Source of the DNA: Lagopus muta
Lineage: Eukaryota; Chordata; Aves; Galliformes; Phasianidae
Assembly: GCF_023343835.1 (NCBI RefSeq)
Contig: NC_064472.1
Coordinates: 10,159,469-10,223,468 of the forward strand
Direction: 5' to 3'
Length of the DNA: 64,000 nucleotides
Position 1 is the first letter of the stretch, and each line of letters begins with the position of its first letter. Positions 24,028 to 49,495 of the stretch are shown here, piece after piece. The translations under genes and the position numbers were made by a program. The notes beneath the pieces were generated by a model. The model worked only from the letters and a program-made list of their open reading frames with translations. It was not told the DNA's origin and searched no databases.

Positions 24028-24399
24028 TCAGGTCAGCTTCACACATCCCACAGTAGCTGTATGTGCTGGAGCTATGACACCCTTGCTCACTTTCTGGATT
24101 TCTTGCATTGCTGTGTGTATGGAAGAATGAAGGCGAGGAAAAGCCCGCTGGTTGTCTCCCTCCTTGGTTGACATTTGCTTTTTTCTGCCTTTGTCCAGGC
24201 TCTGTTGCTCTTGGCAATTTTTGGTCCTCCTGAACCACAGTGGTCTGAGAATCGTATTTGCTTCTGCCTGCAGAGTGGACTTGCCAGTGGGAGGTCCTGG
24301 AGAACAGGGCTGCTCCTTGGGAAGGCTCTCCTCTGTGCTCGTGGAGTGTGTCAGTGTGAGGCACTCCAGGGCTTCATAATCCAGACTCTCACTGCTTTT
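24028..24399 (-). CDS. Myosin-SH2 exon 28: candidate terminal exon
   Basis: A good acceptor (TTCCCTCAG) at 24401-24400 follows the phase 0 end of the SH2 exon. The frame reads [14 protein letters not shown] to a TGA at 24028, adding 123 residues. Y953 in LDYEAL could be a phosphorylation or SH2-docking site. A second possibility is a donor at 24090-24089 (CAGAAA|GTGAGC), which would leave 103 codons here and put the true end further left. An overlapping frame ending at 23909 is also open but does not fit the incoming phase. The C-terminus is the least certain part of the model. Confidence 0.6.
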   Translation of the reverse strand, partial: KSSESLDYEALECLTLTHSTSTEESLPKEQPCSPGPPTGKSTLQAEANTILRPLWFRRTKNCQEQQSLDKGRKKQMSTKEGDNQRAFPRLHSSIHTAMQEIQKVSKGVIAPAHTATVGCVKLT

Positions 24400-27300
24400 C
24401 TGAGGGAAAGAAGAATGGATTCGGCTGTGGCTTGCAGATGTTAAACACAGCCCCAGCAGCACAGCTCTGATGAAAACTCATCAGTGAACAGCTGTGATCA
24501 GCTTGAGGCAGGGGGTATCATCCATCCACAGGCACTGCTTCTGATGCCCTCACTCCTCAGCACCCAGCTGCTTATGTTTGCTGGTGTATGCGGAAGAGGC
24601 CAAGCTGGTTGGCTAAAATTGGATACCTCCAGCAGGATCTCAGAGCAGAGACAGTGCAGCAGGGACTTTCTTAGCTTAGTGCACGGTCCATGCCCCTTTC
24701 CCTGCTGGAGATCCTCGCCACTCACCTGCCCACAGGGAACAGTCAGTATCTCCATGAAGGGCTGGATGCCCACAGTCTGGTGATACCGCACCAGTTCAGT
24801 GAGTGAGGCATGGGCCCGGTCTTCCCCCAGGATCACATAGCGTGCATTGGGCTGCATCTCTATCATGTAGTGCCTGCAGCGGCCTTCACCTCTGGGAAGA
24901 CAGACAGGCAGAAATAGTCATGGAAGGGGGCCACAATCTCTCTCCAAGGCTCAGTCATCACTTTCTACACTTGTCTTTAGAGCCTAAGTGTGATCAGAAG
25001 CTACAGTAACAAATACTGCAAAGATGCAGGAGACACTCTATGCAAGACTGTCACACACTGTGCTATCATTTGCTGGAAGAGCAGCGATTTCCCCAAAGTC
25101 AGTGATGGGCTGGAGAAACCAGGCAGCAGGATCCAAACCCCAGCAGACTGTACTGCTTCCCAGGCTCATTGCCCACATTACAACTCCACACCACCCGTTG
25201 CCTGAGGCTGTATTACCATCATGACCTTGCAGCATATTCTGACTGCTTCTCTGTGGCCCTCCTCTCATCTCCTGTGCTTCAGTCACTGTTTCTTCCAACT
25301 GGTTTTCCCTCTCACCCAAAGTAAGACCTGCACCCTGCATGCTCTGGAGCAGCAACAGTGCACCCACAGTTTCTGGCAAAAGACAGACTGCAAGTCTCCT
25401 GTCTGCTACTCCAGACTGAGGCACCCACAACAGGAGATACTGAGTGTCATGCTAAGCAGATTCTTCTCCATAGAATGCTATGGAGCTGTTCCTCTATCCG
25501 TGAACAGCTCAGTTTAGGACCTTTATATTCCTTCTCCGCAAGGTTTATTACCTGTAGGTCAGGGTGTAGCCTGGTCGGCTCTGGCTGATCCGAACAAGGA
25601 AGCAACCCAAAGGCTTGTCAATCAGCAAGTTTTCAGCTTCCCTGAAAGCAGGAAAGAATTTTTCAGCAGAAAGTGCGCAGCTGCCTCTGTGCAGAAATTC
25701 CCAGTCTATCTAATTTGCTACCATTGTAGTGTTCCTCATCCACAGGGCAGCCAGCATCTGCCAGAGAGTTCCCAGCTAGAGGTTTCCAAACTCTGGCTTG
25801 CTGGTTCAGGGATACCGTAGCACGCTCAGAAGATGGAGCATTCTCGACAAAGCCCTTCCAAGCAGTGCTGCTCCAAACCTGCTCCAGCAGCCTGCTGAGT
25901 GCAATAGCAACAACTTCCTAGCACAGAGCACATAACAAAGCGTTGCTGAGATGAGGAGGTTAGGCACGTGGGCAATTCTGAGGTTTGAGGGTTGATGGAA
26001 GAAGTCATGGGTTAGTGGCGCCTAGCATAAGGTAAACTCCTGCCTTGGAAAAATACCAAGTGAGATTATAGCACTGGCTCTCTACTTCCTGCTGGAAAGA
26101 AGTCTTCTCCCTCTCTGCCCAAAGGACAAAGCACTACTTTGTGCTCTAGGTTAAAGGTGACTGTAAATCACCAATGCAATTTGAGACTGCTCTGATTGCT
26201 CTGTTACATGTTATACTACTGCACAGAGACTTAAATCCAGCAGCACGAAGCATCAGTTAGTAAGAATTTAAAACCTCGGTGTTTTTGGGAAGGATTTGCA
26301 GGCAAAGAACCTGCTGTGTCTTCCACTGTGAAGTACTTGTCTCTCGCCTATAGTTGAACTCTGACAATTTAGTCCCCCATGCGCTAATTGTTTCCATGCA
26401 TTCTTGACTCTGTAGACAAAAGCGGTTACACAGGCGAGGGCCTTGTTAATTATCCATTGAAAAAAAGGCAGATACTGAAGAGATGTCAGCTACTGCCAGT
26501 GTCCTTTACTCAGCTAACATGCTATGCGATGTTTCTGAATAATGTTCACACTGACAGGCCAGCAAAATACAGCAACTTGTGATCTAATAAAGCTGCAAGA
26601 CTCCTTTGGTCGTAAGATAAAAAAGTTACTAACAGAAAAAAGATGACAAAAGTGCCCAAATGACAGGCACATTTGGCACCAGAACCACCACTGAAGTTTC
26701 CCTAAATAAGGGACACTTGCAGTTGGTAAGAACCCGGATGAATTTGCACCCACAGAAAACTAGCTAGAAACTCTGACATCTATCCTGTCTAGCTCCACAG
26801 CCTTGCTCCTATCTCATCACTACTTTAATTAGCCCTTCTCTGACTGTCACAATGCCTGGAAAGCAATAATGCTTGGCTTGGCCAAGATAGTAAAATGTGA
26901 GTTCTCAGTAGCAGAATTTCAGGCATTTAAATAAGGGTTTTCTCAAAAAAATGTGAGAATTTGCAGCCATCTCTTCTCCAAGAAGGTAGGAGGACATGGA
27001 ATTGTCTCTCAGCCTAAAGGTATGTGAAATTTCACCTACACTGCACTTTCCTTAGATGACAAAAAATATCAACAAAATGCCTTTTATTTCCACACCTAGG
27101 GGCTCTGCTGCCTCTTGCCACCAGGTATTCACTAAAATCCCTCTTAACACTTTTAAAAATAACGAATACTAAATTCTGTATTCTTCTGCAATTTCACCTA
27201 AACCGAGAGGCATGAGGTCATAATGAGTTAGACCAAAAGTCCACCTTCATTCAATATCATGTCTATGCAAATAGTCTAGAACATGCCAAATGTGTATTTC

Positions 27301-30300
27301 CTCAAGAACTTTCCCAGACTCCGTTTCCTGCACTTGATCAGTGTTTAGGAACTCACAGTTAATTTCCTATGGGTTCCTACAGTCCTTCCTTAGAGCCATG
27401 TAAAGTTTCACCAGTTGCATCCTTTCATAAGGAACTTCACACTTACTTTTGATGGCCTGAAGTTTACAGTATAAAAGTGAAATTCCTTAAGGAATTTCCC
27501 ATTCCTTAAGGAAGCAAATCCAGGGCAATCCAACCTACGCATCCTTCCTAAGGAAAGAGCAGCTTCTACCTGCCTGCCACAGCCCAAGCTGTGACCAGAG
27601 TGTGCAGAATACTCACCTTCGGCTGATCATCCCATGCAGCCAGCTTGGAAAAGCCCCATCATCCTGCACGACTTTCTGGGCTTGTGTCTCTCTGAACCAG
27701 CGGAGAGTTGCTCCTCTCTTGAGTTGTTTCATTTTTGCCTCTTCTCCTGTCTGTTCCTCTGTCCCCATAACAGGGCAAGGCCCCGAAAGGTGCAGGAAGT
27801 TATCAAAAGGAGTGAACTGAAAACGAGGAGAAGGGGAAGGCAGCAATGAAAGCAAGATCAGAGGCAGGGACACTCTGAAGCAATTACTGTGGTAGATCCC
27901 ATTCTTCAGTGGCTTAAGAAAAGATCAGTCACAAATTACCAGACACTGCTCTCAGTTCCTCGCAGGTCACAGAGTCAGATAATCAGGTAGGGTTTGGAAG
28001 GGACCTCTGGAGATCATCTATTCCATCCCCCTGCTAAAGAAGGTTCCCTAGAGTACATTGCACAGAAAAGTGTCCATACAGGTACTGAATTTCTTCAGAG
28101 AAGGGAACTCCACAACCTCTCTGGGCAGCCTGTTTCAGTGCTTTGTCACCCTCACAGTAAAGAGGATTTTTCTCACGTCTGTATGGAACTTTCTGTGCTC
28201 CACTTTGTACCTATTACTCTTTGCTTTGTCACTGGGTACCATTGAAAAGATCCTGGTGCCAACCACCTGACTCATATCTTTATTCTTGCCCTCACCGTGC
28301 TTTTTAATTAATGACATTAGAAAGGCACTTTAACTTCCGATAACTAGCAAGACAACATTCTTCAGTAGAACAGGTGTGTGCAGAAGTTGGGAGCAGCAGG
28401 GAACCAGCACACCTGCATAAGAGACCCCCAAGCAGAGCCAATACCTCTGTTAGCTTGCTGCGTGGCCGTGGCACAGGTGGCTGCGACAGCATATCAGGTG
28501 CAGTCTGAGGACGGGGACAAGGCAGCGGGCGTCTCTTCCGTGGCACAGGGACTGGGAGGGAGATTCGTTCTGCAAATAGGGAAGAAGTAGATGAAAGCTG
28601 CAATCCAAGATCTGTGAGATCAATCCCCCCAGGTATGCTGTCACCCTTGTAGGAGAGGAAAGACTTTGTCTTTTCAGCATAGACAACAAATGTTAGGAAG
28701 AGAGAGAATCAAGAACACAAGTTTGTGAAGCTCAATCCTTTCCCATCTCTCCTTAGCCAAGGAGTCTGGGAAGGGGCAAAAAGAGGCAAAGAGCCTCATA
28801 ATCACCGTCAGCTCCCACTCTGCATGCCATTAGGAAGCCTACATCCAGGCATACAGCCATGATCAAAGTTCTTCTGTATGGAGTGCAAGGGCACAGTTTG
28901 GCTTTCCTCCCAACATAGCTAGGCAAATGACCTTTACCACGCAAATTCAGCTCCCCAGAAAGTCTCATTTTCAAGAGGCAGAAACGTCAGCACCTTTCTG
29001 CCCACTGCACCAGCCCCACAAGAGCCAAAGACAGGGCATCATCACCTGGAGCTTACAACAAGCTTACAAGGTGGCCACGCAGGTGGCAGTGGGAGGAGAA
29101 GGAGACTCACTCTGGGCCTCTGCTTCCATTGCCAGTTGTTGACATCTTTCTCTTTCCGCCTCCTCCTGTTGGCGCTGTGCCTGAGCTCTCAGCTCAGCCA
29201 CCAGATTCAGATAGGTTCTCCTGCATCGGAATCTCCTGAAAACTGTTCAAGGAAGAGTGGTGGTGAGGAAAAAAAACAGCGATAATCATGTTTCTGCCAC
29301 TCCCTGGTGGAAGCACACTTGGAAATATTCCTTCACCCAGCACAAAGCCCTCAGCACTTGAAGCACAGAAACAAAGAGCAGTGTAGCCCCTCTGCTGTAA
29401 ATACTCCAAGCTGTGTGAGAATTGTCCTCTAACCTTTCAAGCAGTCAGATCGCAGACTTAAAAAAAACAACCAAACAAAAAAAAACAACCAACAAGTTAC
29501 AAATCTAAGCTCTCATCTCTAGTGCCAAAGTGCAAGATGCCAAAAAACAGTCACACAGAAGAGCCACTTTTAGCCATCTATTTACTTGGTACCCTTCAAG
29601 CACTGCTCAATAAAAGCAAAGCTCTTCTATTCAGGAGACAGGATTTCCTTGGTGCCAGTTCATGAGATTCACCAGAAAAGTTAGAGACATCGCATTATAT
29701 TGCCTACTTTACCAGGTACTAAAGGACACCAGTTGAAAGAAGCACCCTTCTCATTCTGCTGTGGACACTACTCACCTGTCTTCCTGAGAGACAAGAACAG
29801 AGAACAGCATGTGGCAGTCAGACTGAATCACTGACTGGACAAAAATTTTTCTTTGCTCTAATATGAGACCACAGTTGAGGGGACTGTCCTGCTTCAGTGC
29901 TCACCTTTCTGTATAACAACTGCTGCTCTTTCCAGTTGCTCCACATATTTTGCCAGCTGATCCTGGTGCCAGTATTTAAAGAAAAGTCGTGACTTTCTAT
30001 GAGGTTGGAAAGAGAGAAAAGTACAGAAATACTGTTTGTTTAAGCTTGCATTCAATCATCCTTTGGACAGCCCACAGCCATAAAGTTCTCCCTGAAGGCA
30101 ACCACGTAACAATTTATAGGTATAATGTCTCTGCAGTTCAGGACTGCACTGACAGCAAGAATGATTCACACCTACCCGCACATCCAGCCTGTCAGGTCTG
30201 TACTTTGCAGTATCTCCAAGCAGCTGAAAGAGAGAAATAAATTGAAAAAAAAAACATTTTCTGCACATAGTGATCGCTAGGTGGCTGTGTTTTTAGGCAT

Positions 30301-33300
30301 ATCAAAGGGGAGGAAAGTGCCTCCGTGTTTCTGCGCAGCATTCTCCGTTCCCTGCCACTTGATCACACCAACTGCCTGTCGATCTGTAGAGCTCCTTGGG
30401 GTATAGCTAGGAGAAGGTTCCATTCGGGAACATCAAAGCAGGGCTCAGAAATAGACTTTGTTCTGCTTTCTCAGAGGCAATTCTGCAGAACCTGTCTTAT
30501 TCTCAGAACTATTCTTCCTCATTTCATTTCCATGTAATTTCAAAGTACAGAAGTTACAGGCTCAGCAAGGCAAGACTTCTTAGAGAAAGTCTATTTTTTA
30601 ATTCCAGTTTCACTTTGCAAGCTTTTGTGACAAAACCTGTGCCATGCAGAAAGATTCCACACAATACTCCAGCTCTGTCAAGCAGTCTCCTTCCTCTGCC
30701 TGCAAACCTAGGCTGTGAAACCGCAGTGACACTTTTTGCAAGTGTCCTGCACAGCAAAACAGAAATAGCTATCCTGTGATTTCAGCCAACTTCTGCTGAG
30801 CTACATTCAAGATAACAAGGAACTGCATTCAAGGTAATTTTTTCATAATTGCATCCTATGATTTTTGTATCTGAAAACACATCGTGCTGCCTGCCTCTCT
30901 ACCTCATCTCCATCTCGTTCATGAGATTCCTTCTGATTCTCACTTGGGTTTGCAGTTCTTAGCAATTTAGTATCATCAATAACTTCAAGGCATCTGTGTG
31001 AGGACTGGAGAGGCTGCTGCCAGGAAAGAACTTTCCCAGAACAACATTCAAATCCTTTCCTTAAGAGACCAAAAAAACAAACAAAAAAATCAGTTGGCTG
31101 TCTTACGTGCTTCATTGTCATTATCACAATTAACTGTGGCAGGAAGAAGGGAGCAGGACAGTGAAGGACAGGAGGTGTGAAGTGCTGCCCTACCTGCAGG
31201 AATTAAAAACCTAATAGGATAAGACTGTGCAGCTGAGGGACATTTACATTTGGAAGGGACAGATTTCTGAAGTGCTGTGAGTATGTTGTGCCAATACACA
31301 CATAAACATTCTTGGGCCAAATGTAATGTTTTTAGCTTGGTGATACCCAAGTGCTGGCTGCTTAGTCAGCATTGCCTTTATTTTCTTCCCCCTGTGAGAC
31401 AATCAGAAAAAAGAATCTAGAAAGGCAACTGGCAACTGTGCTGAGTCTTATCATACTGAGTTCAAGGGACACCCCTGGCCAATACTGTAACTCCAGACTT
31501 TAAGCCTGTTAGCCAGTCCTCCTTCTTCAGCACTTTAACACTGAATTGAATTGCTGCAGAGTATTGAAGAAATATTTCATTCATCATACCAAACTTTTAA
31601 ACATTAATTGTTTTTGTCTAGGAATTTGTGTTCCCTGTCACCACAAAAATGCATCCCCATTTTGTTGCCTCTAGTCAGTTTGCTATTCTTTCCTGAGAAC
31701 CAGAGTCTCTGTAGAGCAAACTGGATAACACATAACAAAGGAAGAGCTCTTACCTTCCTTTTGTCAAGGAAACATCTGGTTTAACTAGAAGAATTCCATA
31801 TCTGCGAAAAACAAATGAATTCAGCTCGGTAAGAGCCACATCCTTGATGTACTGAGCTGACCCACGTCAAGCCCACAGCAAACAATAACAAATCAGTCTT
31901 TCCCACTAGGGTTCCCACAGCAAACAACCTTGTCGTCTCAGGTATGCAAACTTTAGAGAAGTAGTTTTACTCCCCGCCTGTTTCAGTTTACCAGCGTTGT
32001 TTCCCTAACAGTATCTAATAGGAACATTCAGAGGCTTTAAGATACCTTTCAGCAAATTCCTCAAATGATGGTCTCCAAGAGAAACCATCTCTTCGGATCC
32101 GGATAGTCTCCAGCAGTCCATTGTATCGGAGCTGGAGCAGCACCACAAAGACAGGATTAGAGAAACAAACATACAAAGGCCAGAACAGTCATCAGGACAT
32201 GAGTTTGTCCCTCTCCTGCCCAAACCTCTCTAGGTTAAAAAAAAAAAAGTTTCTGAAAGTATTTCCTTGATTAAAGTCTGAATTCACCACATCCTGAAAC
32301 TCTGATGATTAACCACCTCTAGTTGAAAGCTGGAAACCACAACATCCAAATAACTTCACCTGCCAGCCATGGGCACTACTTCACACGTGGGCACTACTTA
32401 CTTGTCCTTCGTAGGACAGCCTTCCACTTCCAAACCTGTACAAAGCTGTACTCTGATGCACACAGATCCACTTCCCTCTTTATCCTATCTTTTCTTATAT
32501 GTTTATATATGATACAGGCCACAGAGTGTTCTGAACACTTCTAACTAGTTTCAGTATTCTTTAAGGGCCTGGATATCAGACCTGACACAATACCCAGAGA
32601 CACCTGTATCAGCACACATCAGCTCCTCTCAAAGCTTCTTGGCTTCTGTTCACAGCTGCCCTGAGAGGTACTGTCCATACCAGTCCCCACATCAGAGATG
32701 AGAAGACGGATGCTAGTACCTGACAAGCAGCTCTCATTACATTCATGAATATGAAATTAATATGAATGGGGGAGAACTAAGACTGTAAAACCTGGACATA
32801 GCAATCTGTGTCACAATAAAACCTTAAATGCTCAGAACCTCTACATGCATAGAAGGTGTGCCCACGCTTAATCCTACAAGGGAAGAATCAGACCAGCAAA
32901 CTTCCAATGAGCTCCACTACTTTTCAGAAGGCTCTGAACCTTAAATCCATTCCTTCCCTGCCTTAGATTCACTTCCTACTGAGACCTGGCAGAAGTACCT
33001 GCAAAGAAAACTGCTTTTCTTTACCTGCTGCAGCAACATCTGGCTGTCCACAACACCTGGCTGCTTCTGGCTGTTGGGCTTTATACAGCGCACGAAATGT
33101 GGGTTGGCAGAATACATCCTCTCCATGAGCACCATCAGGGAATGCTGGTTAGAGCAGAGAAAGATCAGAAGCCCAGCATACCAAAGCACTGCCAGACTTC
33201 CGAGTGCAATACCCTGCAGCTAAAAGCTGCCTTCCTTCCCATGCCACTAACTCAGACTCCTGAAACAGCAACAGTTCAGGCTTCAGCAACAGCCAGACCA

Positions 33301-36300
33301 CCATTACAGGCTGCGCCTGGCACCCAAAAGTAAAGCTCTTCTACAAGCTGGATACTTTAGCCAGTGACTGGCAAGCTCTCAAATAAATAATGCAGCATAT
33401 ACCTCAAAGGGCAGTGCAGGGCATCAATACTTTACCCGGAACTGAGCTCCAGCAGACTGCTTTCGTGTGCTGTTGAACTTGTCTGCTCCTGGTACAATCT
33501 GAAACCAAACCCAAACAAAATGATCATCTCTGGAAGGAGTCACTGATTGCTATGTTGATTGCAGATGAAGAGAGAGTAGATTTCAGGGGTGGGAAGGTAA
33601 AAGAAACACTGCAATAGAGGCAAGCAGAAGACAGTGTACAAAGATTGCTGTCTGCTCCTATTATCAGCCAATTGCTGCCTGCTCTTGTTTTTAACCATTT
33701 TTTCAAATAGTAAAAATCAGGCACCTGTGTCATAATTTATCAACTGCCACATGGGCCTCAAGCACGATACCTTGGTTTTCATATGAGGCATCAGCGTCCC
33801 CGTTCTGGAGATAGTGGCTGGAAGAATAGAGACAGGAGTTAATTTTGTATCTAGCTTTGCCCACAGTCAACCATTCCAAAACATTCAAAGCTTACTTCAA
33901 GCACAAATTTCCCCACACATACTAAATCACAGATGTTACTTTAGGTTTCAGCATTTGGAAATATAAGGAACGAGCTAAAGAGTGAGGGAAGAAGATGCAA
34001 ATATATTAAGCATGCAATCCAGGGAACATTATTTTCTGTCATGGAAAAGACAAGACAGCTGGGTTACTGAGCAACATTAAGTGAACTTCAAAACAAAGAT
34101 CATCCGGAGTAGGCACCTAACAATGTAGAAAACAGTACAGGTAGAAAGTGGAAAGCTCAGCAACGCACAATCAATGTGGGAGATTACACAAAACAAAGTA
34201 ACTCAAAATTAATTCAGTGATAAGATGAAAAATTCAGGGAGGCTGAATTTTCGGAAGGATCAAATGACGGTGTGGCGTACTGTCGATGCCATGGTGTCAC
34301 GTCAATCACAGAATGACTGAAATCGGGAAGGACCGCAGCAGGTCAACTTGTCCAACCGCTCTGTTCCGCAGTGCCACCTACAGCCCGTCGGTGGGAACTA
34401 CACAACCGCAGAACAGGAATGCACTGAGCAGATTCTCTCTGATGTTTACCAGCTTTCAGAAAGAGCAGAGGCGAGGCTGTGTATCTCCAGTAACAGTGTG
34501 GGGGTGGCAACAGAGAAACATACTCATGAAAGGTAGTCATCTCCAACAAGTGGAAAATGTGGAGCTGTTGGAGTAGTGCAGAGGAGGGCCACTAAGATGC
34601 TCACAGGCACTGAGCACCTCTCCTATGCAGAAAGGACAAGAGGGCCAACGGCATCCTGGCCTGCATTAGAAATAGTGTGGCCAGCAGGAGCAGGGAGGTG
34701 ATCATCCCCTTGTACTCAGCACTGGTGAGGCAGCACCTCGAGTGCTGTGTTCAGTTTTGGGCTCCTCGCTGCAGGAAAGATGTTGAGGTCCTGGAGCGTG
34801 TCCAAAGAAACTGGAAACAAACTGGTGAGGGGTCTGGAGCACAGGGCTGATGAGGAGCGGCTGAGGGAGCTGGGATTGTTCAGTCTGGAGAAGAGGAGGC
34901 TCAGGGGAGACCTCATTGCACTCTACAACTTCCTGAAGGGAGGCTGTGGTGAAGAGGGATCTGGCCTCTTCTCCCAGGCAACGAGCAGGACACGGGGCAA
35001 TGGCTGCAAGTTGTATCAGAGGAGGTTTAGGTTGGACATAAAGAAGAGAGTGGTCCACTAAACTCAGAGAGTGGTCAGGCACTGCAATGTCTGCCCAGGG
35101 AGGTGGTGGAGTCACCGTCCCTGGCAGTGAAGAGGCATCTGGATGACGTGCTGCGTGACGTGGTTTAGTGCTTGTGGTGGCAATGGTGATGAGGAGACAG
35201 TTGGATTAGATGATCTTATAGGTCGTTTCCAACCTTGTGATTCTATGATTCTAAGGCTGGTGGAGCTGGGAGTGTTCAGCCTAGAGAAGAGAAGGCTCCA
35301 GGGTACCTCACTGCAACACTCCTGTACTTGAAGGGAGCTAATCACAGAATCACAGAATTGTGGGGGTCGGAAGGGACCTCCAGAGGTCATCGAGTCCAAC
35401 CCCCCTGCCAAAGCAGGTTCCCTACACCAATAATAAAGAGGAGGTGATTTTTTTACATGGTCTACCACTGATAGGGCAAAGGGGCAATGGTTTTAAACTA
35501 AAAGAGAGGAGATTAAAGTTAGACTTAAGGAGAGGATCTTCACTCAGAGGGCGGTGAGGCGCTGGCACTGCTGTCCAGAGAGCTGTGGTGCCCCATCTCT
35601 GGAGGTGCTCAGTGGGTTGGAATGGGGCCCTGGCAGCCTGAGCTGGTGGGGGCAACCAGACCATGGCAGGAGGTGGAACTGTGTGGGCTTTAAGGTCCCT
35701 TCCAACTTAAGTAATTCACTGATTATAAGAAACACGAGCAGAACTGCAAAACACAGTGCAGAATAGATATAGAATTCATCAGTTACTTGTAAATTCCAGA
35801 ATATGGCTTGGACTTAACAAGGATATAAAACAGAGAGAGCCCAGAGGAGAGCTGCAAAGGTGGACAGGGTCTGGAGGGCAAGGTGTGTGAGGGATGGCTG
35901 AGGGCCCTGGGTGCGCTGGGCACAGAGCGGAGGAGCTGAGGGGAGCCTGATGGCGGCTGCAGCTCCTCAAGGAGCGGAGGGCAGCGCTGAGCTCTGCTCT
36001 GTGTGACAGCGACAGGGCCGAGGGAACGGCATGGAGCTGCGCCAGGGGAGGGCTGGGGGTGGGGAAAGGCTCTGCACCAGAGGGCGGTGGGCATGGAACA
36101 GCCTGCCGGAGCTCTATGGGCATTCAGACAACACTTTAAAGCAAAATATAGCAAACAAACAAGACCTGGATCTCTGTAATTAGTGTGTGTAAGAATGGTT
36201 AGGCTTGTGGTCAGAACTATGCACATGCAGTGTTTTCCCAATTCCACAGGAGGAACAGCTCTGACGGATATTCTTGCTTCCATGCACATGTACCATGGGG

Positions 36301-39300: not shown

Positions 39301-42300
39301 TTTTTAATCCAATAGCTAACACCGAAAATAGTGTGTGCAAGAGGAGGATGCTATTGATGAAAAATTTGCTGACCAACTCAACACGTACCTACTGATGAGA
39401 GATGGTTATGCTATTGTCTAGATATAAGCAAGAGAAGATATTTGAGAAGCAGAACTAAATAATTCTGTTTCCAGTTTTGCCTTTCCAACTTGTTTTAAGC
39501 AATAATCTGAAGTACTGGCATTTAGTGTTTGTTTTTAAAAAAACATCTTGCATTTCAACTGAATCTTGTTGTGAAAATTATTTTCTTGTTAGTTTTTTTT
39601 AGTGAAAGGAAAATAACACCTTACACTTACCACACTTCCCCTTCATTTGGCTTCTCTGATATTGTGCTGTCTTACCGATTCTCTCTCCAGCAACTTTCTA
39701 AAGCTCTGCACACTGCCAAAACTGTGCAGCAGTAGCCTTTCCCTCTTTTGTACAAACACCTACATTTATCTTCTAGTCTAGATTTGAGGGAGAAAGTAAC
39801 GATAATTCCTTGGTCTCCCACTTAATCTCTGCAGTCTCTTTGGGGTCAAACAAAATGAGGCCAGCATTCATGATCCCAGCTGTTAGTAAGAGACCAAGCA
39901 GATAAGCTTGCCTCTGTGCAAGCAGAAGAAGGAAGTGGCACAGACAGACATTCTTGTTCCTAAGAAGTTGCACATGTGCAGGGACACCCATCAAACAACT
40001 CTGGGTCATTCGTTCAAGCCAGCACATCTGTGATTCATTATGTTTCTTACCTTCTGCCTGCTGCTGGGTGTGAAAACGCTGTATCTGCTCTCCCCGGGTC
40101 ACTGACATTGTGCAAACGAGGCATTTCAACAATTCATCCTCCTGCACTCCAAACTGACCCTGGGAAAGGGAAAACAGATCAGGAGGCAATAGCGAATCCT
40201 TGTTCTATATGTGAGGATTGTATCTGTATCATTACCGACCCAGTGTAAGGGGATGCATCTTGCAGAACCAGAGTCAGATACATGCTCTGAGATGCACATT
40301 ATCTTATCCAGGGTGTAAGATCATTTTCTGAATACTTTCCATTTGGTTCTCCCAGTGGTGCCACCTGTCACCTTATTTGCGTGCCACATCAGTCCAGGCT
40401 GAATGACTTATGGAATAGCACCACACCAAGGTGACTGTGCACAGAGATCAGCCATGTGAACCCACAAGAAAACAAAGGGAACAAAGGGAACTCAGATGCA
40501 GTTGAACTCTCCAGTAATTACTTTAACAGGAATTCCCCCTTCTGTAGGCAAAAACCAAGAAGCAGATTTTAAAAACAAAGACAAAAAGAAGTTGGCTGCT
40601 GAACAGATGCATGTGGTTAATTCAGGTATGCTGTAGGAGGAATGCAGATGAAGAGATGAAACACAAAACCAAGGGTGCTGGAATTTCTAACAGATCAAAA
40701 TAAAAAGACATGGAGAAAGCAAAAATATTTTTTCTGTACTGTGCTGTTAGTAAAGCACTATAATGCATCCATCTCATATACTAAAGATCAGATAGGCCTA
40801 GGGAATATCTGCTTTTTAATCTGATAATTTCATGTAAAAATAGTAGAAAATTTAATTCAAGATGATCAACAAAAGTGACTGCAGTTAAGGTGTCATCCTT
40901 GGACAGGATTTACATAGATACACAAAGCCAGTGTTCAGATACCACATATCCAAATTTCTCCAAGGTCCCACACTTAGTGAAACATGGAATCGGATTTTAA
41001 AACGTTTGCATTGTGTGAAGTCAACAAGGCATGTGTAGTATCTCCAGATGAAAACCCTAGTCCTAGTCGAGAAAGAGAACCTGGGAAGTGTTTCTTTGGG
41101 TACCAATGGCAGTGAACACAAGGCAATCAGAGGGACACACTGCAAAATCGTGACTCACCGCTGCAGCCTTCAGCCACCCCTGTGAGCTTTCACTCACTTT
41201 TAGAGACCCATTGCTCTCCTGAGGCTCGAAGGTCACATTGCCCAGTGACAACACACCAGCCAGGATTGCCTGCATATCCACTTGTTCCTAAAACACACAT
41301 GAGGGGTGACTGAAAATCTATTAGTATGTAAAATACAAAACGTGGGGACCCCAGAAGGAGAAAAGGTGAAGGAAAGGCATGGGCAGCCTGTGGGAAAAGC
41401 TCTAGCTGTCACAAAGCGTAACAAATTCAAGTGTTTTGGAAGCAAGATGGAAAATTCAGGTATAAACAAAGCAATCCCAGAACTGACCTGCTCTTGGAAG
41501 CCCACCATGTCAAGGGCATTGCACACCTCCTGGTATTTCTGCTTCCAGTGCTGAGATACATCCTCCGTACCAAACCATTTGCTTATGTACCTGAGAAAGT
41601 ATACAAAATCATAACAAAATCAGTGCAGCAATTCAGTTCTACTCCAAATAAAGCAGATCAGCGATGGCTGAGATCTGAAAGAAATAAAAATCTTTTCTAA
41701 GGTAACGCAACACAGAAGAGATCCAGATCTATCAGCTTTCATGATGACTTGTAAGATCTCTTTATAAACACCATTCAGATCCCACTTCAGCTTCCTTTAT
41801 TTTATTTACCTGTACCAGGCTCCATCCCCAATGGCACAACTGTAGGCTCCATTCCACTACTTTCCCTTCCACTCCCCATCACGAAGACTAAACCAAGACC
41901 TGACTTTGAAGTACCTATAGAGTGAAGGATCCAATAATCCATACATCTCCTTTTGCTCTGAAGACAGTCCAGCAAACATGTAGTAGAAGATATGAAAATT
42001 CCTCTCGCCAGTATCTTGTTGCACCACTCGTGACTTCTCCAGCAGATACTCACTCAGCTTGGCACCTCGCACTGCACACAAGGAGGTAACAGGGTGTATT
42101 TTGCACAAGGAGACATGAAGCTGACTGAGCTGCCCACATCTCTGCACTACTGAGAGAAGCACGGAGTTGCCTGAAACAAGTCTTGCATACAACTTCTCTG
42201 GGCTGCCCAACACGCTGGAAATGGGCTCCTCCATGCTTCCCATGTTCTCAAAGATATCTACTCACCTCCTTTAATCACAACAGTCATCAGACACCACTGA

Positions 42301-45300
42301 CCATTGCTGATATCTCCCCCGCATCATTGCCCCAGTATTCTTCCCTTACTCCCACATCATTCAAACCCAGGTCTCATCTCAAAGCTGTGGCTGCTATAGA
42401 ATTCTCTTTACACGCACACCCTTTCCACAAAGAATCAAGTAACAAAATCTTACCCTCCTTAAGTTCCAGCTACTCAGTCCACTCCCTCAACTGCCCTTGA
42501 CTTTACCTGTATTGTTCTGGAAACGCAGCTGTATGTATTTTCCAAAGCGGCTGCTGTTGTCATTCATCACAGTCTGGGCATTGCCAAAAGCTTCAAGCAA
42601 TGGGTTTACCTACAAGACGTACACAGACAGAAAATGCATTCTTCAAACTAAGCGATCCAATCCAACTTGTTTGGAAAGGGTTAGCTTTAGCATTTTCTGC
42701 TTAACATTCTGATGGAACAGGAAACACTCCATGAACACTCAAAAATGTATGTTTTATCATATTCTGGGAAAAAAAAGTCTGCAAGAGGCAAACGTGACAA
42801 AGACTAAGCAGAAATTACTGTAAATAATCACAAAAAGCGATGGACTATCAACTCATTTGTTAAGGTAATGTTGGTATAACAGACTTTCCCAGGAATCTAG
42901 TATGGCACCACTAGATTGTTTGTTTGCTAACCAACAATAAGCCAATACACATGACACTCACTTTTTTTTTTTTACTTTTTTTTTTACATTTTTTTTTACA
43001 CTTTTTTAAATTTTTTTTTTAAATGTAAGCATGATAAAATACCTAATGGCATCTGTAGACAGCATAAGGATCAGAACAGTGAATTATGAAGAAACTGAAA
43101 GAACAATCAGACCAGCTTGGGTCTGATTCCACCACAGATGTCTGAAACAGACTTTAAAATGGAGCAGTCCAAGAACTCATTCCACTTAATCCATCAACTG
43201 GAAGTGTAGGATATGATTTGCTCAAAATAAAACTCCTCTGGGAGCAAGTCAAGACCAAACAGCCATGTTTCAAAATCAGCTAGCAAAAGTTATGAAAACA
43301 GTAAAGATTAAGTCACTGAGTTAGCAAGTATGTGTCTGACTGTAAGTATAACTAGCCAATGAAAGGTTACTGAAGGCTGTGCAGATTCTCCATCCCTGGC
43401 TTTCATTAAATCAATATTTTATTTCTCTAATAAAAATATTGTTCCATCTCAAACAGGAAATGATTCAGAAAATAAACCCCTACTTTCTTGTTGCAGACAT
43501 CATGCTAAACAATCACAATAGTTCTGTTCCATTTGGGAACCAAAACATCACATTCCCAGCAAACCTACCAACCCTTCTAACTTGTGGTCAGCTGTTTCAT
43601 CATCCTTCCCCCTATGTTCCTAAAATCTGTCTTAATGTTTCGCTCCTCAGCTCAGTGGTGATGATTCACCAGGAGGTTCTCTGAGCTTGGTGCTAGCTGC
43701 CTCACAGCAGTGCTACTTCTGCATCTACAACAAGACCCCCCCAGCACCTACCTGAAGGATCTGCTGCTCCAGCTGCGAGTTGCCTTTGCACAGGTTCATT
43801 ATGTGCTGCAACAGTAGCTTCGTACTCTCTGTTTTCCCTGCACCGCTCTCTCCGCTGCAAAGAAGTGAGGAAATCACAGTTGCCATAAAGTACAATTGCT
43901 CTGACCCTCATGTCTTAATGTCCTATTGCTTGAGCATGCAATCCAGCAGTTTTACACCTTTTTCAGCTGTAACAGTGGGTTCCACAGTGTACTGATTTCT
44001 GCCCGGAGGAGTTTTTCCCCATTTACCAGGAAGTACAGAAACACTTCATGCTGTCATTACTGGATGGGACACATAGAAGAGTTCACTTGATCTGCTTCTT
44101 AATGATCTGTTAATACTTAACAATCCCCCTCAGAAGTGTTCTGATTCACCAACTGCCTCATATATGCTGGGGTCAACAGATTCCTGCTTCTACGGACTAT
44201 TTGCCCCATCTCACATCCAGAAGTGAGCAATTGATCTTGTGATACTGCTGCAATCTCAAATCTCAGGCTCTTTACATGCTTCAGCTGGTTGATAATGCTG
44301 GCCTATAGCTGCAGAGCTGCTGTCACACCTACAGCAGCAATGCTGCACGTCATTTTGGCATCGCACAGATTCAGCACTCCACCTCCAAGTCAAATAAGTA
44401 GCACTCAGAAAGCACAGTTTCCCAACCTACGGGAGAGGGAATGTCCAGTCAAGGACACACTGCCTCACCGACCAACAGCATCACAGTGGCACGCAACTTC
44501 AGCATCTGCATAGTAAAATAAAAATGCAGGAAACGATGCAGGTATATGTGAGGGCTGGTCTCTGTTTACACACCTGACCTTTGAGCATCAGGTGTGGCTT
44601 TGCTGCTTCGCAACTTCCCCTAACTCCGTGCTTGCACCTGGCACGGGCTGCTAAATACCTCAAGCTCTAAGATGAATACCTGATCCCAAGCATGTATTGA
44701 GCCATCATCACCTGAATATGGGAAACCAAAACAAGACCATATGCTATCCAGCACTCCTGCCACACAGATAAGATGATCTCTGATTGTCATAGAATAGTTT
44801 GGGTTGGAAGGTACCTTTAAGATCACCTAGTTCCAAACTCCTACAATAGGCAGGGACACTTCCCTCTGGACCAGGTTGCCCACAGCCCCATCCAGCCGGG
44901 ATTTGAATACCTCCATGGAAGAGACACCCACAACCTCTGCACAACCTGTTCCAATGTCTCATCACATTCACAGTAAAGAACTTCTTCCTAATATCTAATC
45001 TAAATCCACCCTCCTCCAGATTAAAGCCATTTCCCCTTATCCTGTTGCTAGATCCCTTAGCAGAAGTCCCTCCCCGGCTTTCTCGTAGAGCCCTTTCAGG
45101 TACTGGAAGGCAGCTATGAGGTCCCCCTGGAGCCTTCTCTTCTCCCCCGGCTCTCTCAGCCTGTCCCATAGTGGAAGTGCCCCAGCCCTCTGATCATCTT
45201 TGTGGTCCTCCTCTGGACCTGCTCCAACAACTCCACATCCCTCATGTTAGGGGCTACAGAACTGGACACAGTTCTTGGAGACTTCCTTCCTCCACGGAAG

Positions 45301-48300
45301 CACTGTCATTCAGCGCTCCCCCAGGTCAAGCTCACCCTTATGTTCTTAAACAAGAGCAACAGCTCTGCCAAGTCCTGCAAGCTCACTCTCCAGCTGTGGG
45401 TATGTAACTGCCCCAGGCTGTGAAGAAAAGCAAAGTCATCTCCAGGAGACCCATGTGCTGTTCCACAGCATACTGAGGCTGTGACTAATGCCAGCGAATC
45501 TCAGCCAGTGGAATCTGCAGCTCAAGAAAACTTGATTGCAACGAACTTTTGTCACCCAGGGGGCAGCTGCTGTGTTCAACATCAGTTATAACCTCTGAAG
45601 TAAGTCATCCAGATCTCCCAGAATAAGCTGAAGCGAACAAAAAGAGAACAGAAAGGGCAGGAAGGCAATGTGTGTATCCTAGAGAAAAGTACGCGGGTTC
45701 ATGCCTTGCTAGAAGTGGGCAACTGCAATGCAGAAACAACACAAGCACAAGGAATAGTAGAACGTGGTGCATCGCTACACTGTTCTGATAAACTCCAGTG
45801 TAACAAGAGTGACATCAACCTCCATACCCAAAGCTTTGCTCAAAGTAGGTAATCTTGCTATTCAGTGTTTTACCACTTGCAGATAGTAAAACCATGAACT
45901 TCCTGTTACAACAACATACTCAACAGGATTGCAAGGTGCATGACAGTTGCTTGAGCTGTCATTTCTGAGACCACAAACCGCTCTCAGAAAATAACAAGAC
46001 CACTGCCTTACTGGGAAACACCTACAGGTCACTCATTTTGTCTTCCACCTCCTTAGACAAATCCTGTGACTTTTCTCAAATCCTAAGAACCCCACCAGCA
46101 GCACCTTTCCCACCTGCAGACTCACAGCCACCACATCCTTCTGCTTCATAAGAGCACTTCAATGTGCTGTTGGCCTGCAGGCTGTTGAAATGAGCAGGGC
46201 TGAAACCTGAGGTCTGTTCCAAGTTCCAACTGCAAAACCCAGTAATGATTCAGTAAGTCATTTCCATACAACGTAGCATGAAAATGATCAGAATGTTCAC
46301 ATAAAGAAGGAAACACTAAATCAAGCAGCTGGCAACTAACACATCAACTCAAAAGTCATTTAAAGCCTCTACAATACTCAAAACAGAAAGTTATCTGGTG
46401 ATTAAAAGCTTCTTTTGCTAGTCAATACTGTCAGAGACTTTCTCTGCTAGATGATGCTATCTGCTGCCCTGAAGATGAGAAACAATAATGACATAATGGA
46501 GGGAAATACTCATGGTATTGGATCACAGTCTTGTGATACAGGAACTCATTTCTCTCCTGTTCCACAGAATTCTCACAACAATACAGAATCACAGAATTGT
46601 TTCAGTTGGATAGGACCCTTAAAGGTCACCTGGCTCAACTCCCAGCAGTGAACAGGGACGCCCACAGCTCCATCAGGTGCTCAGAGCCCCTCCATCCTGA
46701 CCTTGGGTGGCTCCAGGAATGGGGCATCCACCATTCTCTCAGGACAATCTGTGCCAGTGCCTCATCACCCTAAATGTAAAAATCTTCCTTATATCCAACA
46801 TAAATCTCCCTTCTTTCAGTTTGAAGCCATTTCTCCTTGTCCTTTCACTTTCTTTTCTGTAGCTCCCCAATAGACACAGACAGGCCGCCCTCAGGTCTCG
46901 CTCAGCCTCCTCTTCCCCAGGCTGCACAGCCCCAGCTCTCAGCCCGTCCTCACAGGGAGCTGCTCCATCCTGACCATTCGTGCGGCCCTCCTCTGGACGC
47001 TCTCCAGCAGGCCCCCGTCTCTGCTGTGCTGAGCACTCCAGCTGTGGACGCAGCGCTCCAGGTGCGGTGTCACAGCGCAGAGCAGAGGGGCAGGATCCCC
47101 TCCCTCCCCCCGCTGGCCGCGCTGCTTCGGATGCAGCTCGGGATGTGCTTTGATTTTAAGATTTTTCCTGACTAGATTTTCTTACAGCAAAGAAACTCCT
47201 TCTCTTCCCTTTCCTCTTTGGTTACTTAGGGAGATGATAGAATAATAGAAAGGTGTAAATTAAAAATTAACTTCAAGGTCAGCCAGTTTCCTCTCCCTGC
47301 TGTGGGCTGGTTGCTTCCATCAGCTCAGGTACCCAGGGCTCCATCCAGCTCAGCCTTGAGCACCTCTAGGGATGGAGCACCTACAAAAATAGGTCCACTC
47401 CATCTCTCCTATGAAGTCAGGCTGAGAGAGCTGAGCCTATTCAGTCTGCAGAAGAGAAGTCTCTGGGGAGACATCATTTCAGCCTTTCAATATTTAAAGG
47501 GACTTTACAGGTAGGACACAAATCAGCTTTTTACATGGGTAGATAAACAAGAGGATGTGGGGAAATGGTTTTAAACTAAAGGAAGGGAGATTTTCATTAG
47601 ATGTCAGGGGGAAGTTTTTCAGTGAAATGGCAATCAGAGAGCTGTGGTGCCCCATCCCTGGAGGTGCTCAAAGCCATGCTTGATGGGGCCCTGGGCAGCC
47701 TGGTCTGCTGTTTGATTTAATGGATGGCAGCCCTGCCTGTGGGAGAAGGAAGGAACTTGATGATATTCGAGGTCCCTTCCAACACAAGCCACTTTATAAT
47801 TGCATGATTTATAAGATTCAATACACAAATTACAGTGGAAGATGTTTTGCCAAAGAAAAGCAATGTGCAGAGTGGGTTAACCTTTCCAGCACTACAACCC
47901 AACAGAAGCAACCCTGCTAGACTCCACACAGTTGCGCTACCATCAAAGGCTGGCTAGCGACCACATGAAACCCAACCTCTTTCACAACACCTCTCTCTTC
48001 ACCATCTGTCTGCTAATCTTGCTGGAATGCAGCCAACGAAGCTGGGTTTGGACCCACCAGAAGCGTGGATACGTGAAGGTCTGATGGGGAGAACGCCGTG
48101 CCCTCGAGGCACCTCACCTGATGACGATGCACTGGCTCTGCGGCCGGGCGCCGCGGCGACCCAGCATGGCTTGGTAAGCACGGTCGGCCACGGCGAAGAT
48201 GTGCGGAGGCAGCGTGCCCTTCTCATGGCACCGGTACTGCTCGGAGACCTGAAGGGTGAGACGGCCCTTGAGGACGGGCTGGGGGACACGGCACCAGCAC

Positions 48301-48611
48301 TCGCTGCTGCTTGGGCTGCCCGAGCGCGACACTCACCTCTCTCCCGTAGAGCTGCAGGGGCTGAAAGGGGTTCACGGCGATGAGGATGTCCCCCACGTCG
48401 GTCTGGAGGCGGTGAGGGGAGAGCGGTGAGGGGAGAGCCGGGAGGGGGGAGAGCCGGGAGGGGGAGAGCCGAGCCCCGCGCGCACACTCACGTAGATCTG
48501 CTGCCGCAGGAAGCGGTCCCGCAGCGCGCCCAGCAGCGACGCCTCGTCCAGCTCCGCCAGTGCCGCCAGGTCCCCCGCCACAACTCCGCGCTGCTTCCCC
48601 GGCGGCCCCAT
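24028..48611 (-). CDS. Unconventional myosin with C-terminal SH2 domain (class III-like motor, IQ, proline-rich linker, SH2)
   Basis: Twenty-eight exons on the minus strand join in consistent phase into about 1068 codons, from ATG at 48611 to TGA at 24028. Residues 1-690 are a full myosin head: P-loop GESGAGKT (107-114), switch I NDNSSRFG (156-163), switch II DIFGFE (383-388), and the actin-binding FVRCIKPN stretch. The closest remembered relatives are class III myosins ([34 protein letters not shown]), but the class III N-terminal kinase is absent. After the head come one IQ motif (705-715), a charged helix (723-751), a proline-rich linker (752-793), an SH2 domain (about 851-945) and a 123-residue tail. 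The likely role is an actin-based motor that docks on phosphotyrosine proteins; this is inference from domains. Human has no myosin-SH2 gene that I know of. It may match the vertebrate class XXXV described in myosin phylogenies, which I cannot confirm. Confidence 0.88.
24726..27816 (-). CDS. Myosin-SH2 exons 25-27: SH2 domain
   Basis: Exons are 27617-27816, 25552-25641 and 24726-24891 (residues 794-945). The SH2 begins [15 protein letters not shown] (W852, R859), continues [10 protein letters not shown] with the phosphate-binding arginine R877 in the FLVR motif, then GYTLTY, CRHYMI (H897) and [15 protein letters not shown], and ends TVPCGQ. The upstream run TLRWFRETQ is the signature that precedes the SH2 in the SH2D2A, HSH2D and SH2D7 adaptors, so this tail appears to derive from that family. 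All core phosphotyrosine-binding residues are present. The acceptor of the last exon must be CCCAG|AGGTG; shifting by two bases would give a stop. Confidence 0.92.
27975..28320 (-). repeat. CR1 LINE fragment in a myosin-SH2 intron
   Basis: Reverse-oriented CR1 tail: ggtttggaagggacctctgg, agatcatctattccatcccc, then cacaacctctctgggcagcc and cacagtaaagagga. It sits between the proline-rich exon and the first SH2 exon. Confidence 0.85.
28445..31801 (-). CDS. Myosin-SH2 exons 20-24: converter, IQ neck, charged helix and proline-rich linker
   Basis: Exons are 31754-31801, 30176-30223 ([17 protein letters not shown], first residues of the converter), 29905-29996 ([15 protein letters not shown]), 29111-29242 and 28445-28569. 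Residues 645-793. The motif [11 protein letters not shown] fits a single IQ site (705-715), so one calmodulin or light chain is expected, giving a short lever arm. A run of E, Q, R and A (723-751) should form a helix. Residues 752-793 are basic and proline-rich ([19 protein letters not shown]), like the linkers that SH3 domains bind in SH2D-type adaptors. The two 48-base exons are easy to miss. Confidence 0.87.
32046..37845 (-). CDS. Myosin-SH2 exons 12-19: lower motor and actin-binding region
   Basis: Exons are 37759-37845, 37521-37586 ([12 protein letters not shown]), 37100-37213 ([10 protein letters not shown] to HYAGK), 36470-36581 ([17 protein letters not shown]), 33771-33817, 33436-33498, 33025-33144 (FVRCIKPN) and 32046-32131 ([14 protein letters not shown]). 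Residues 414-644. The exon ending at 36470 uses a GC donor (CTG|GCAAGT); the next exon restores frame only with this junction. The surface loop between SLLF and AQFRHSL is short, about 30 residues. The intron between 33817 and 36470 has taken several CR1 insertions. Confidence 0.9.
34310..34555 (-). repeat. CR1 LINE tail, reverse orientation
   Basis: Begins aatcacagaatgactgaaat, then cgggaaggaccgcagcaggt, the reverse complement of a CR1 3' end, and runs on as diverged sequence. First member of a dense CR1 mosaic inside the intron before the exon at 33771. Confidence 0.65.
34556..35254 (+). repeat. CR1 LINE 3' fragment of about 700 bases
   Basis: Plus-oriented, with the ordered CR1 words gtgcagaggagggccactaa, gtgaggcagcacctcgagtg, ctggagcacagggctgatga, ctggagaagaggaggctcag and the ending ggtcgtttccaaccttgtga plus ttctatgattcta. 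It is the longest and least diverged CR1 copy in the window. Confidence 0.92.
35255..35341 (+). repeat. CR1 LINE fragment split by a later insertion
   Basis: The short plus-oriented piece ctggtggagctgggagtgtt, tagagaagagaaggctccag is followed directly by a reverse-oriented CR1 tip, after which plus-oriented CR1 sequence resumes. This suggests that one copy was interrupted by another. Confidence 0.75.
35342..35424 (-). repeat. CR1 LINE tip inserted in another CR1 copy
   Basis: Sequence aatcacagaatcacagaatt, then ggtcggaagggacctccaga and catcgagtccaacccccctg, is the reverse complement of a CR1 3' end. It is flanked on both sides by plus-oriented CR1. Confidence 0.8.
35425..35735 (+). repeat. 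CR1 LINE 3' fragment
   Basis: Words gcaatggttttaaactaaa, agaggagattaaagttagac, ggtgccccatctctggaggt and ggtcccttccaacttaagta follow CR1 order and end. Probably the continuation of the piece at 35255-35341. Confidence 0.85.
35825..36120 (+). repeat. CR1-related fragment, GC-rich subfamily
   Basis: The GC-rich segment contains cagaggagagctgcaaaggt, gagcggaggagctgagggga, tctgcaccagagggcggtgg and gcatggaacagcctgccgga, corresponding to the body of a CR1 3' region. Its base composition is richer in G than in the neighbouring copies, which suggests a different subfamily. Confidence 0.7.
38270..43854 (-). CDS. Myosin-SH2 exons 4-11: nucleotide-binding core
   Basis: Exons are 43752-43854 (P-loop), 42507-42609 (switch I), 41915-42071, 41488-41590, 41159-41287, 40051-40159, 38747-38863 and 38270-38370 (switch [10 protein letters not shown]). 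Residues 106-413. Each boundary has an AG acceptor and GT donor, and phases chain without a break. Several exons are exactly 103 nt. Key ATPase residues are present (K113, T114 of the P-loop; N158, S160 and R161 of switch I; D383, G386 and E388 of switch II), so an active motor is expected. Exon 4 follows the longest intron in the motor region, about 4.3 kb, rich in CR1. Confidence 0.92.
42960..43022. repeat. T-rich low-complexity tract
   Basis: About 60 bases of T runs broken by ac, aca and aaa, lying in the intron between the P-loop and switch I exons. On the minus strand of the host gene it is A-rich, so it is not the polypyrimidine tract of an acceptor. Confidence 0.8.
44788..45290 (-). 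repeat. CR1 LINE 3' fragment, reverse orientation
   Basis: Starts tcatagaatagtttgggttg, continues ggaccaggttgcccacagcc, cacagtaaagaacttcttcc and gaccagattaaagcc-like sequence, ending near gaactggacacagttcttgg. It is about 500 bases, minus-oriented and 5'-truncated, in the large intron between exons 3 and 4 of the myosin gene. Confidence 0.9.
46583..47145 (-). repeat. CR1 LINE 3' fragment, reverse orientation
   Basis: Runs from aatcacagaattgtttcagt through cttgggtggctccaggaatg and ggtctcgctcagcctcctct to ctccagctgtggacgcagcg. It belongs to the same subfamily as the copy at 49496-49909 but extends farther toward the element's 5' side. Confidence 0.9.
47235..47395 (-). repeat. CR1 LINE tip, reverse orientation
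   Basis: The words agatgatagaataatagaaa, caaggtcagccagtttcctc and cagccttgagcacctctagg match a diverged reverse CR1 3' end. A plus-oriented copy follows immediately, making an inverted pair. Confidence 0.6.
47396..47815 (+). repeat. CR1 LINE 3' fragment
   Basis: Plus-oriented CR1: tatgaagtcaggctgagaga, cagtctgcagaagagaagtc, ggtgccccatccctggaggt, and the end gaggtcccttccaacacaag. It lies about 300 bases from exon 3 of the myosin gene. Confidence 0.85.
48118..48611 (-). CDS. Myosin-SH2 exons 1-3: start of the motor domain
   Basis: Exon 1 is 48492-48611 (residues 1-40, starting MGPPGKQRG), exon 2 is 48337-48402 (41-62, [14 protein letters not shown]), and exon 3 is 48118-48248 (63-105, ending QCIVI plus two bases of the next codon). 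All donors are GTGAG. The start was chosen because it is the first ATG upstream of the motor frame in the CpG island. It leaves only about 40 residues before the first conserved motor block, so there is no room for a kinase domain in this exon. Between AYQAM and QCIVIS, exon 3 carries an arginine-glycine-rich insert (GRRGARP) that class III relatives lack. Confidence 0.9.
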
Positions 48612-48730
48612 GCCGTCCGCTCCCGACCCGGCCCGCCGCCCGGCCCGCCTCGCCGCAGCCCCGCCCCGGGACCGCCCGTCGGGGCGGAGCTCGGTTTGAA
48701 TGTGGAGCGGCGGCCGCGGGGCCGGAGCAG
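48612..48730 (+). other. Possible 5' noncoding first exon of ARHGEF39
   Basis: The ARHGEF39 start codon lies in an exon that begins after a clear acceptor (tctgtttatcag, ending at 51185), so at least one upstream noncoding exon should exist. The best plus-strand donor in the CpG island is gagcag|gtaacg at 48730/48731. The left limit is unknown; the span given only marks the gap after the myosin ATG. This is inference from splice signals. Confidence 0.3.
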
Positions 48731-48775
48731 GTAACGGGCGGCGGTGCCACCGGAGGAGGGGAATGCCGAGGGGCG

Positions 48776-48820
48776 GCGGTGCGGTGCGGTGCGGTGCGGT
48801 GCGGTGCGGTGCGGTGCGGT
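48776..48820. repeat. Perfect pentanucleotide array (GCGGT)9
   Basis: Nine uninterrupted gcggt units, followed by a partial gcg. It sits inside the bidirectional CpG island, within the predicted first intron of ARHGEF39 and upstream of the myosin start. Being uninterrupted, it is likely to vary in length between individuals. Confidence 0.97.
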
Positions 48821-49114
48821 GCGAGCCACGCTCCCCTCCCCTCCCTTCCCTTGCCTGCCCTGCCCTGCCCGGCTGAGGGTCGCGCGTAGCCGCCCCGGGA
48901 GCGTCAACATGGCGCCAGGACAGCTCGGGGGTCGGGGCAGCAGCAGCAAACCGGGGCACAGTGCGGGGCAGCGGGCAGAAGAAGGGGATGATAAGGAGAG
49001 TCCGTGTGGGCACGCTGGAGCCTCCTCAGGAAGGAGGGAGCTGGAGCAGGGCTCCTACGGAGGTGTGTGTGATGAATGCTTACCTGTTGGGTGTGTGGAG
49101 ATGGGTTCAGGCAC

Positions 49115-49195
49115 TGCTTCCCGGAGCTGTGGTGCCCCCTCCCTGGCGATGCTCCAGGCCGGGTTCGATGGGGTCCTGGGCAGCCTGAGCTGGTA
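49115..49195 (+). repeat. CR1 LINE short fragment
   Basis: The words ggagctgtggtgccccctcc and tggggtcctgggcagcctga are the CR1 3' body. Only about 80 bases remain. Confidence 0.75.
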
Positions 49196-49495
49196 ACATA
49201 AGGCAACCCTATTCCCGGGGCTTGATAGGCACTCAGGGGGACAGAGTTCAAATAAAAAGCAGCTCTGAAGGGAGTCTGGAGGAGCCTGACAAGGAGCAGC
49301 ATGCACAGTGTGTGTGCATCATCTCCTGCTCACTGTGTAAGGAGTCCATTGTAAGCAATCTAGTGAGTCTCTGCAGTGTGCACCAACTGCAGTGTGCCTC
49401 ACAATTAGTCCTAATTGCAGGTTGGTATTCCAGGGCTCCCCAGACTCTTTCAGAATTAAAAAAAAAAAGACACAAAGAAAACCCTGCATGTTTCA

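Follow-up and report, generated by a model that had tools for sequence, protein, structure and literature searches.

A predicted Lagopus muta gene fits the motor-IQ-SH2 architecture of class XXVIII myosins

The window analysed here, a stretch of 64,000 nucleotides of Lagopus muta DNA, carries on its minus strand a predicted gene for a myosin motor and an SH2 domain in one protein, running from an ATG at 48611 to the end of a stop codon at 24028 (Table 1). The gene model was assembled by hand from minus-strand open frames and splice-site scores, with the homologous grouse protein P0001 then used as a check; its 28 in-phase exons, the boundaries of which are predicted, comprise 3207 nt with the stop codon and encode 1068 amino acids with a single terminal stop. 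An earlier note on this DNA had placed one unbroken motor-SH2 chain at 24028..48611, and these outer coordinates match the start and stop codon ends exactly. Rfam at gathering scores gave no match anywhere in the 64,000-nt window, and ten long flanking ORFs gave no Pfam match at 0.01. The minus-strand ORFs near 44747-45193, 46742-47155 and 28138-28329 are repeats that we take to be the ends of CR1-type LINE elements, which are common in birds.

Table 1. Predicted exons and accompanying features of the motor-SH2 gene, in positions of the whole window.
Feature	Position	Strand	Content
exon 1	48492..48611	-	start codon at 48611, aa 1-40
exon 2	48337..48402	-	motor
exon 3	48118..48248	-	motor
exon 4	43752..43854	-	P-loop GESGAGKT
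exon 5	42507..42609	-	switch [10 protein letters not shown]
exon 6	41915..42071	-	motor
exon 7	41488..41590	-	motor
exon 8	41159..41287	-	motor; in-frame alternative donor after 41198
exon 9	40051..40159	-	motor, Glu at presumed TEDS position (E328)
exon 10	38747..38863	-	motor
exon 11	38270..38370	-	switch II DIFGFE
exon 12	37759..37845	-	motor
exon 13	37521..37586	-	motor
exon 14	37100..37213	-	motor
exon 15	36470..36581	-	motor, GC donor
exon 16	33771..33817	-	loop 2 ([16 protein letters not shown])
exon 17	33436..33498	-	loop 2
exon 18	33025..33144	-	motor
exon 19	32046..32131	-	motor
exon 20	31754..31801	-	converter
exon 21	30176..30223	-	converter
exon 22	29905..29996	-	motor end and IQ start
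exon 23	29111..29242	-	remaining IQ and charged helix
exon 24	28445..28569	-	proline-rich linker: PVPVPR (aa 757-762), PVPRPR (783-788)
exon 25	27617..27816	-	PFDN motif, pre-SH2 helix, first SH2 residues
exon 26	25552..25641	-	SH2 with FLVR arginine R877
exon 27	24726..24891	-	remaining SH2
exon 28	24028..24399	-	tail: DYExL (952-956), C-terminal FPRL..SI motif (1032-1047), stop
CpG-rich stretch	48001..49200	.	spans exons 1-3, likely promoter region
AATAAA	23458..23463	-	3' of stop, possible polyadenylation signal

Every one of the 27 introns in the final model has an AG acceptor; the donor is GT in 26 of them and GC (CTG/gcaagt) in the intron that follows exon 15, an exon whose end at 36470 is backed by P0001. 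Exon 8 has two in-frame donors of near-equal splice score 39 nt apart (41159 and 41198). Since precisely the 13 intervening residues are missing from P0001, alternative splicing of this exon is likely; the long form (41159) was chosen for the model, and both it and the short form (41198) may be real. For loop 2, one exon with its start at 33488 was given up in favour of exons 16 and 17 after comparison with P0001.

The encoded protein consists, in order, of a motor (14-684), a weak IQ motif (699-718), a charged helix, a proline-rich linker, an SH2 domain (852-927) and a tail. Pfam finds only the motor (Myosin_head, E=8.3e-210), the IQ motif (E=4e-4) and the SH2 domain (E=1e-16) in the 1068 residues, with neither a MyTH4 nor a kinase domain, and 13 residues precede the motor match; the sole IQ match lies just above its cut-off (20.4 vs 20.3 bits), and chance is no concern at these scores. 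The active-site motifs are intact (P-loop GESGAGKT at 107, switch I [10 protein letters not shown] at 156, switch II DIFGFE at 383), as is the SH2 arginine within FLVRIS at 874. E328, located 16 residues ahead of DSIAK, occupies what we take to be the TEDS position; it is invariant in 30 aligned rows, together with W852, R859, R877 and H897, presumably the phosphotyrosine-pocket residues of the SH2 domain. The features read earlier from the letters (P-loop, switch I and II, IQ motif, proline-rich linker and a complete SH2 domain) are thus all present in one protein, the IQ motif barely so.

The charged helix-like stretch measures 30 residues in the Lagopus muta protein and 23-49 residues in 29 of the 30 rows (P0013 was excluded by the pattern). 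It looks partly single-alpha-helix-like in some fish rows, and no long coiled coil is visible by eye. In some fish rows the counts of i,i+4 salt pairs in this stretch exceed those of shuffled sequences, being reached by 0 of 500 shuffles for P0081, 3 for P0060, 5 for P0061 and 6 for P0109; the count of the Lagopus muta stretch does not stand out, as 130 of 500 shuffles reach it, and a single alpha helix was dropped for it on this ground.

A search of approximately 5.8 billion proteins returned 7,925 matches, the best 120 of which were listed, each row representing a cluster at 90% identity. Both PF00063 and PF00017 are found in 118 of these 120 rows (P0036 and P0049 are listed without SH2), and the best match among those listed, from Tympanuchus, is 95% identical. 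The 113 rows with a species name come from birds, alligator, turtles, salamanders, a caecilian, ray-finned fishes, coelacanth, sharks, rays and a chimaera. Of the groups in which the earlier note proposed to seek a motor-SH2 architecture, birds, reptiles and fishes are represented among these rows, and frogs by fragments recovered with a tail query. No mammal or squamate occurs among these 113 species-named rows, in line with human myosins not being known to include an SH2 protein; this suggests, short of proof, that the gene is absent from mammals and squamates, because the rows are 90% identity clusters from the best 120 of 7,925 matches. The tail-only query (35 rows) added the frogs Pelobates cultripes (P0137) and Ascaphus truei (P0146) and the sea slug Elysia chlorotica (P0142). 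The two frog records are fragments, and P0146 lacks the middle of the SH2 domain including the FLVR arginine, through either a missed exon or decay. The mollusc record P0142 has the helix-SH2 tail of the motor-SH2 family (39% identity over 83% of the tail query), with no PxxxPR seen in it, and falls outside the animal groups given for class XXVIII in the available text of PMC2375034. Many of the database names for these proteins are misleading: they include myosin-IIIb-like, unconventional myosin-VIIa-like or -X and, for proteins with only motor and SH2 listed, "non-specific serine/threonine protein kinase", and tail fragments are recorded as HSH2D, SH2D4A-like, SH2D7-like or inositol phosphatase.

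The existence of records comprising an SH2 tail alone, under the names HSH2D, SH2D4A-like or SH2D7-like, would be expected if a myosin gene had been wrongly joined to an adjacent SH2 adaptor gene. The tail-only records also align through the linker, however (e.g. P0121), and look like partial gene models; motifs of the linker between motor and SH2 are conserved, and both domains co-occur in the 118 listed homologues mentioned above. In seven of the 120 listed rows (P0056, P0060, P0080, P0081, P0082, P0102 and P0109), a whole protein, 1,074-1,136 residues long and containing both domains, is encoded on a contig of 3,329-3,937 bases; with 60-63% identity to the query, these proteins do not come from birds. 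Contigs of this size leave no room for introns and are most simply spliced transcripts, with retrocopies as the alternative, from which we infer that in other vertebrates the motor and the SH2 domain are encoded on a common transcript. The whole proteins on transcript-sized contigs, together with the linker conservation, rule out a two-gene artefact for practical purposes, and we regard it as extremely improbable.

Conservation was measured against the Lagopus muta protein in an alignment of 30 rows (this protein and 29 homologues). The motor has a median identity of 74% and SH2 one of 75%, against 60% in the proline linker, 57% in the neck, 35% in the charged helix and 25% in the tail; the SH2 domain is therefore as conserved as the motor by this measure, with a smaller share of invariant positions (29/95 vs 311/671). 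Strict motifs nevertheless stand out in the variable tail region: P757, P759, P761 and R762 of PVPVPR and P783, P785, P787 and R788 of PVPRPR are each found in 30/30 rows, as are Y953 and L956 of DYExL and P1033, R1034, L1035, S1038 and I1039 of the C-terminal motif, and each residue of PFDN (796-799) is kept in 29/30. PXXXPR is the motif bound by the SH3 domains of CIN85, according to the available text of PMC2833206; both PVPVPR and PVPRPR contain it and are predicted ligand sites, and the motif suits other SH3 partners as well. An AlphaFold2 model was obtained for the duck tail P0121 (29-row alignment) in place of the Lagopus muta protein. Its mean pLDDT is 67.8, with block means of 84-96 for the SH2 domain and 76-85 for the pre-SH2 helix; over the C-terminal helix that coincides with the last motif they fall from 85 to 69, and most of the linker and tail is below 60. 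Foldseek with this model gave HSH2D as the best PDB match (E=9.4e-11, 48% identity), and HSH2D (2cs0) is also the closest solved SH2 domain in a PDB sequence search (106.6 bits).

A new motor-SH2 fusion was rejected as an explanation of this architecture, which is already known because animal myosin class XXVIII has been defined since 2007 by a tail that combines IQ, short coiled coil and SH2; in the available part of that account, the class occurs in Nematostella, Xenopus, Gallus gallus and some fishes, has been lost in most animals and has a bootstrap of 750/1,000 (PMC2375034). With its motor, its single borderline IQ and its C-terminal SH2, the Lagopus muta gene fits the known class XXVIII architecture. 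A class III myosin (MYO3B-like) that has lost its kinase domain might be considered, as many listed homologues are named "myosin-IIIb-like" and SH2-tailed filasterean myosins are called myosin III-like in the available text of PMC3942036. This reading is very improbable, given that Pfam finds no kinase, that full-length homologues likewise begin at the motor and that the tail matches published class XXVIII as described in the part of PMC2375034 at hand; with regard to kinase exons 5' of 48611, the flanking DNA was covered through the ten flanking ORFs. When class III sequences were sought with a kinase-motor chimera, the 120 matches listed contained only Myo10, Myo15 and MAP4K4/mig-15 kinases. 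A trout association paper naming "Myosin-IIIb-like" was set aside, the gene meant not being identifiable from its available text (PMC6723134).

Class XXXV had been put forward in the earlier note as a possibility, and to this identity, or to class XV, we attach practically no probability. The PDB motor scores, obtained with an earlier 27-exon, 1049-aa model without exon 16, were 550 bits for Myo7a, 526 for Myo10 and 522 for Myo15, indicating no special nearness of the motor to class XV. The Lagopus muta protein has no MyTH4, whereas mouse Myo15 (P0156) has PF00784. FERM is presumably a further tail domain to be expected of class XV or the former XXXV. In a motor tree of 21 rows (Lagopus muta, 16 homologues, one Myo15, two Myo10 and one Myo7a), the Lagopus muta motor and the 16 motor-SH2 homologues, which carry no class label, are split from Myo15, Myo10 and Myo7a by a 100/100 branch. 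The tree, which carries a long-branch warning, leaves out class III, class XVI and labelled class XXVIII and XXXV rows. Its groups are otherwise as expected (birds, alligator with tortoise, amphibians); sharks fall within the ray-finned rows, attributed to a distant root drawn at the midpoint. Class XXXV is further ruled out by its merger into class 15 as a subgroup, in a 2017 account that, in its available text, also reports class-28 in Capsaspora (PMC5583752).

We propose that the gene is a bird orthologue of the class XXVIII (class-28) myosins, encoding an actin-based motor with an SH2 tail that works as follows, a reading that we consider rather probable. The motor appears catalytically complete and, given the Glu at the presumed TEDS position together with the complete active site, would act on actin with no need for head phosphorylation. 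The single IQ motif would bind calmodulin or a light chain to form a short lever, which the charged helix may lengthen. As the phosphotyrosine-holding residues are kept, the SH2 domain would bring the motor to receptors or adaptors that carry phosphotyrosine at the actin cortex. The linker's two invariant PxPxPR motifs are candidate binding sites for SH3 adaptors of the CIN85 type, through which the motor would be connected with receptor uptake or cortical actin. To judge from the residues kept, the idea of a phosphotyrosine-reading motor is reasonable.

The lone IQ motif, the short charged helix with salt pairs within the shuffle range and the lack of a visible long coiled coil would also suit a cortical tether, with a motor that is slow or non-processive and keeps SH2 and SH3 partners attached to actin instead of transporting them. 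The active site and the TEDS residue resemble those of a working motor, and kinetics cannot be read from sequence; we see the tether as unlikely, though with some weight as an alternative. Alternatively, the SH2 domain might act mainly within the molecule by binding a putative phospho-Y953 of DYExL, leaving the tail autoinhibited or dimeric, as the invariance of Y953 and L956 inside a tail of 25% median identity could suggest. The approximately 26 residues from the SH2 end (927) to Y953 make a short way back in cis, and the P0121 model is poorly resolved over that part (block means 56 and 52), which leaves this intramolecular role doubtful. Returning to the class XXVIII motor that docks on partners, a bolder version, which we offer as distinctly speculative, would make it a phosphotyrosine-gated receptor-uptake motor: SH2 would pick activated receptors, the PxPxPR pair would bind CIN85/CD2AP-type adaptors and the motor would pull on cortical actin; mammals would have lost this direct kinase-myosin link, and the HSH2D-type adaptors retained in mammals would have the tail module as their sister or their origin.

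If the phosphotyrosine-reading motor is true, it would link tyrosine kinase signalling directly to force generation on actin. The gene is less surprising than the earlier note claimed, because class XXVIII has already been described; the class is little studied, and our literature search, mostly of papers outside subscription, found no functional study of it. What is added here is the conservation of SH2 on a par with the motor in median identity, the lack of mammals and squamates among the 113 species names of the best 120 matches, and the strict motifs in a variable tail, which open concrete binding tests in chicken cells or zebrafish.

Among known systems, class XV myosins (including the former XXXV) share the motor; mouse Myo15 differs in having MyTH4 and no SH2, and stands apart in the tree. 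Class III myosins share a database name with many orthologues, whereas they possess, in the available text of PMC3942036, an N-terminal kinase that the Lagopus muta protein lacks. The SH2-tailed choanoflagellate and filasterean myosins, placed in a myosin III-like group in 2014, share the motor and the C-terminal SH2; they form a separate, diverse group in the accessible part of the same paper (PMC3942036) and are likened here by description, not by sequence. HSH2D offers the nearest solved SH2 domain both by sequence and by the fold of P0121, a comparison limited to its SH2; PDB entry 2cs0 is an adaptor chain without a motor. The published accounts of class XXVIII, in the portions available, make no mention of the strict linker and tail motifs seen here; otherwise no difference was found from the class as described in those portions of PMC2375034 and PMC5583752, and motor, IQ, short helical stretch and SH2 are all shared.
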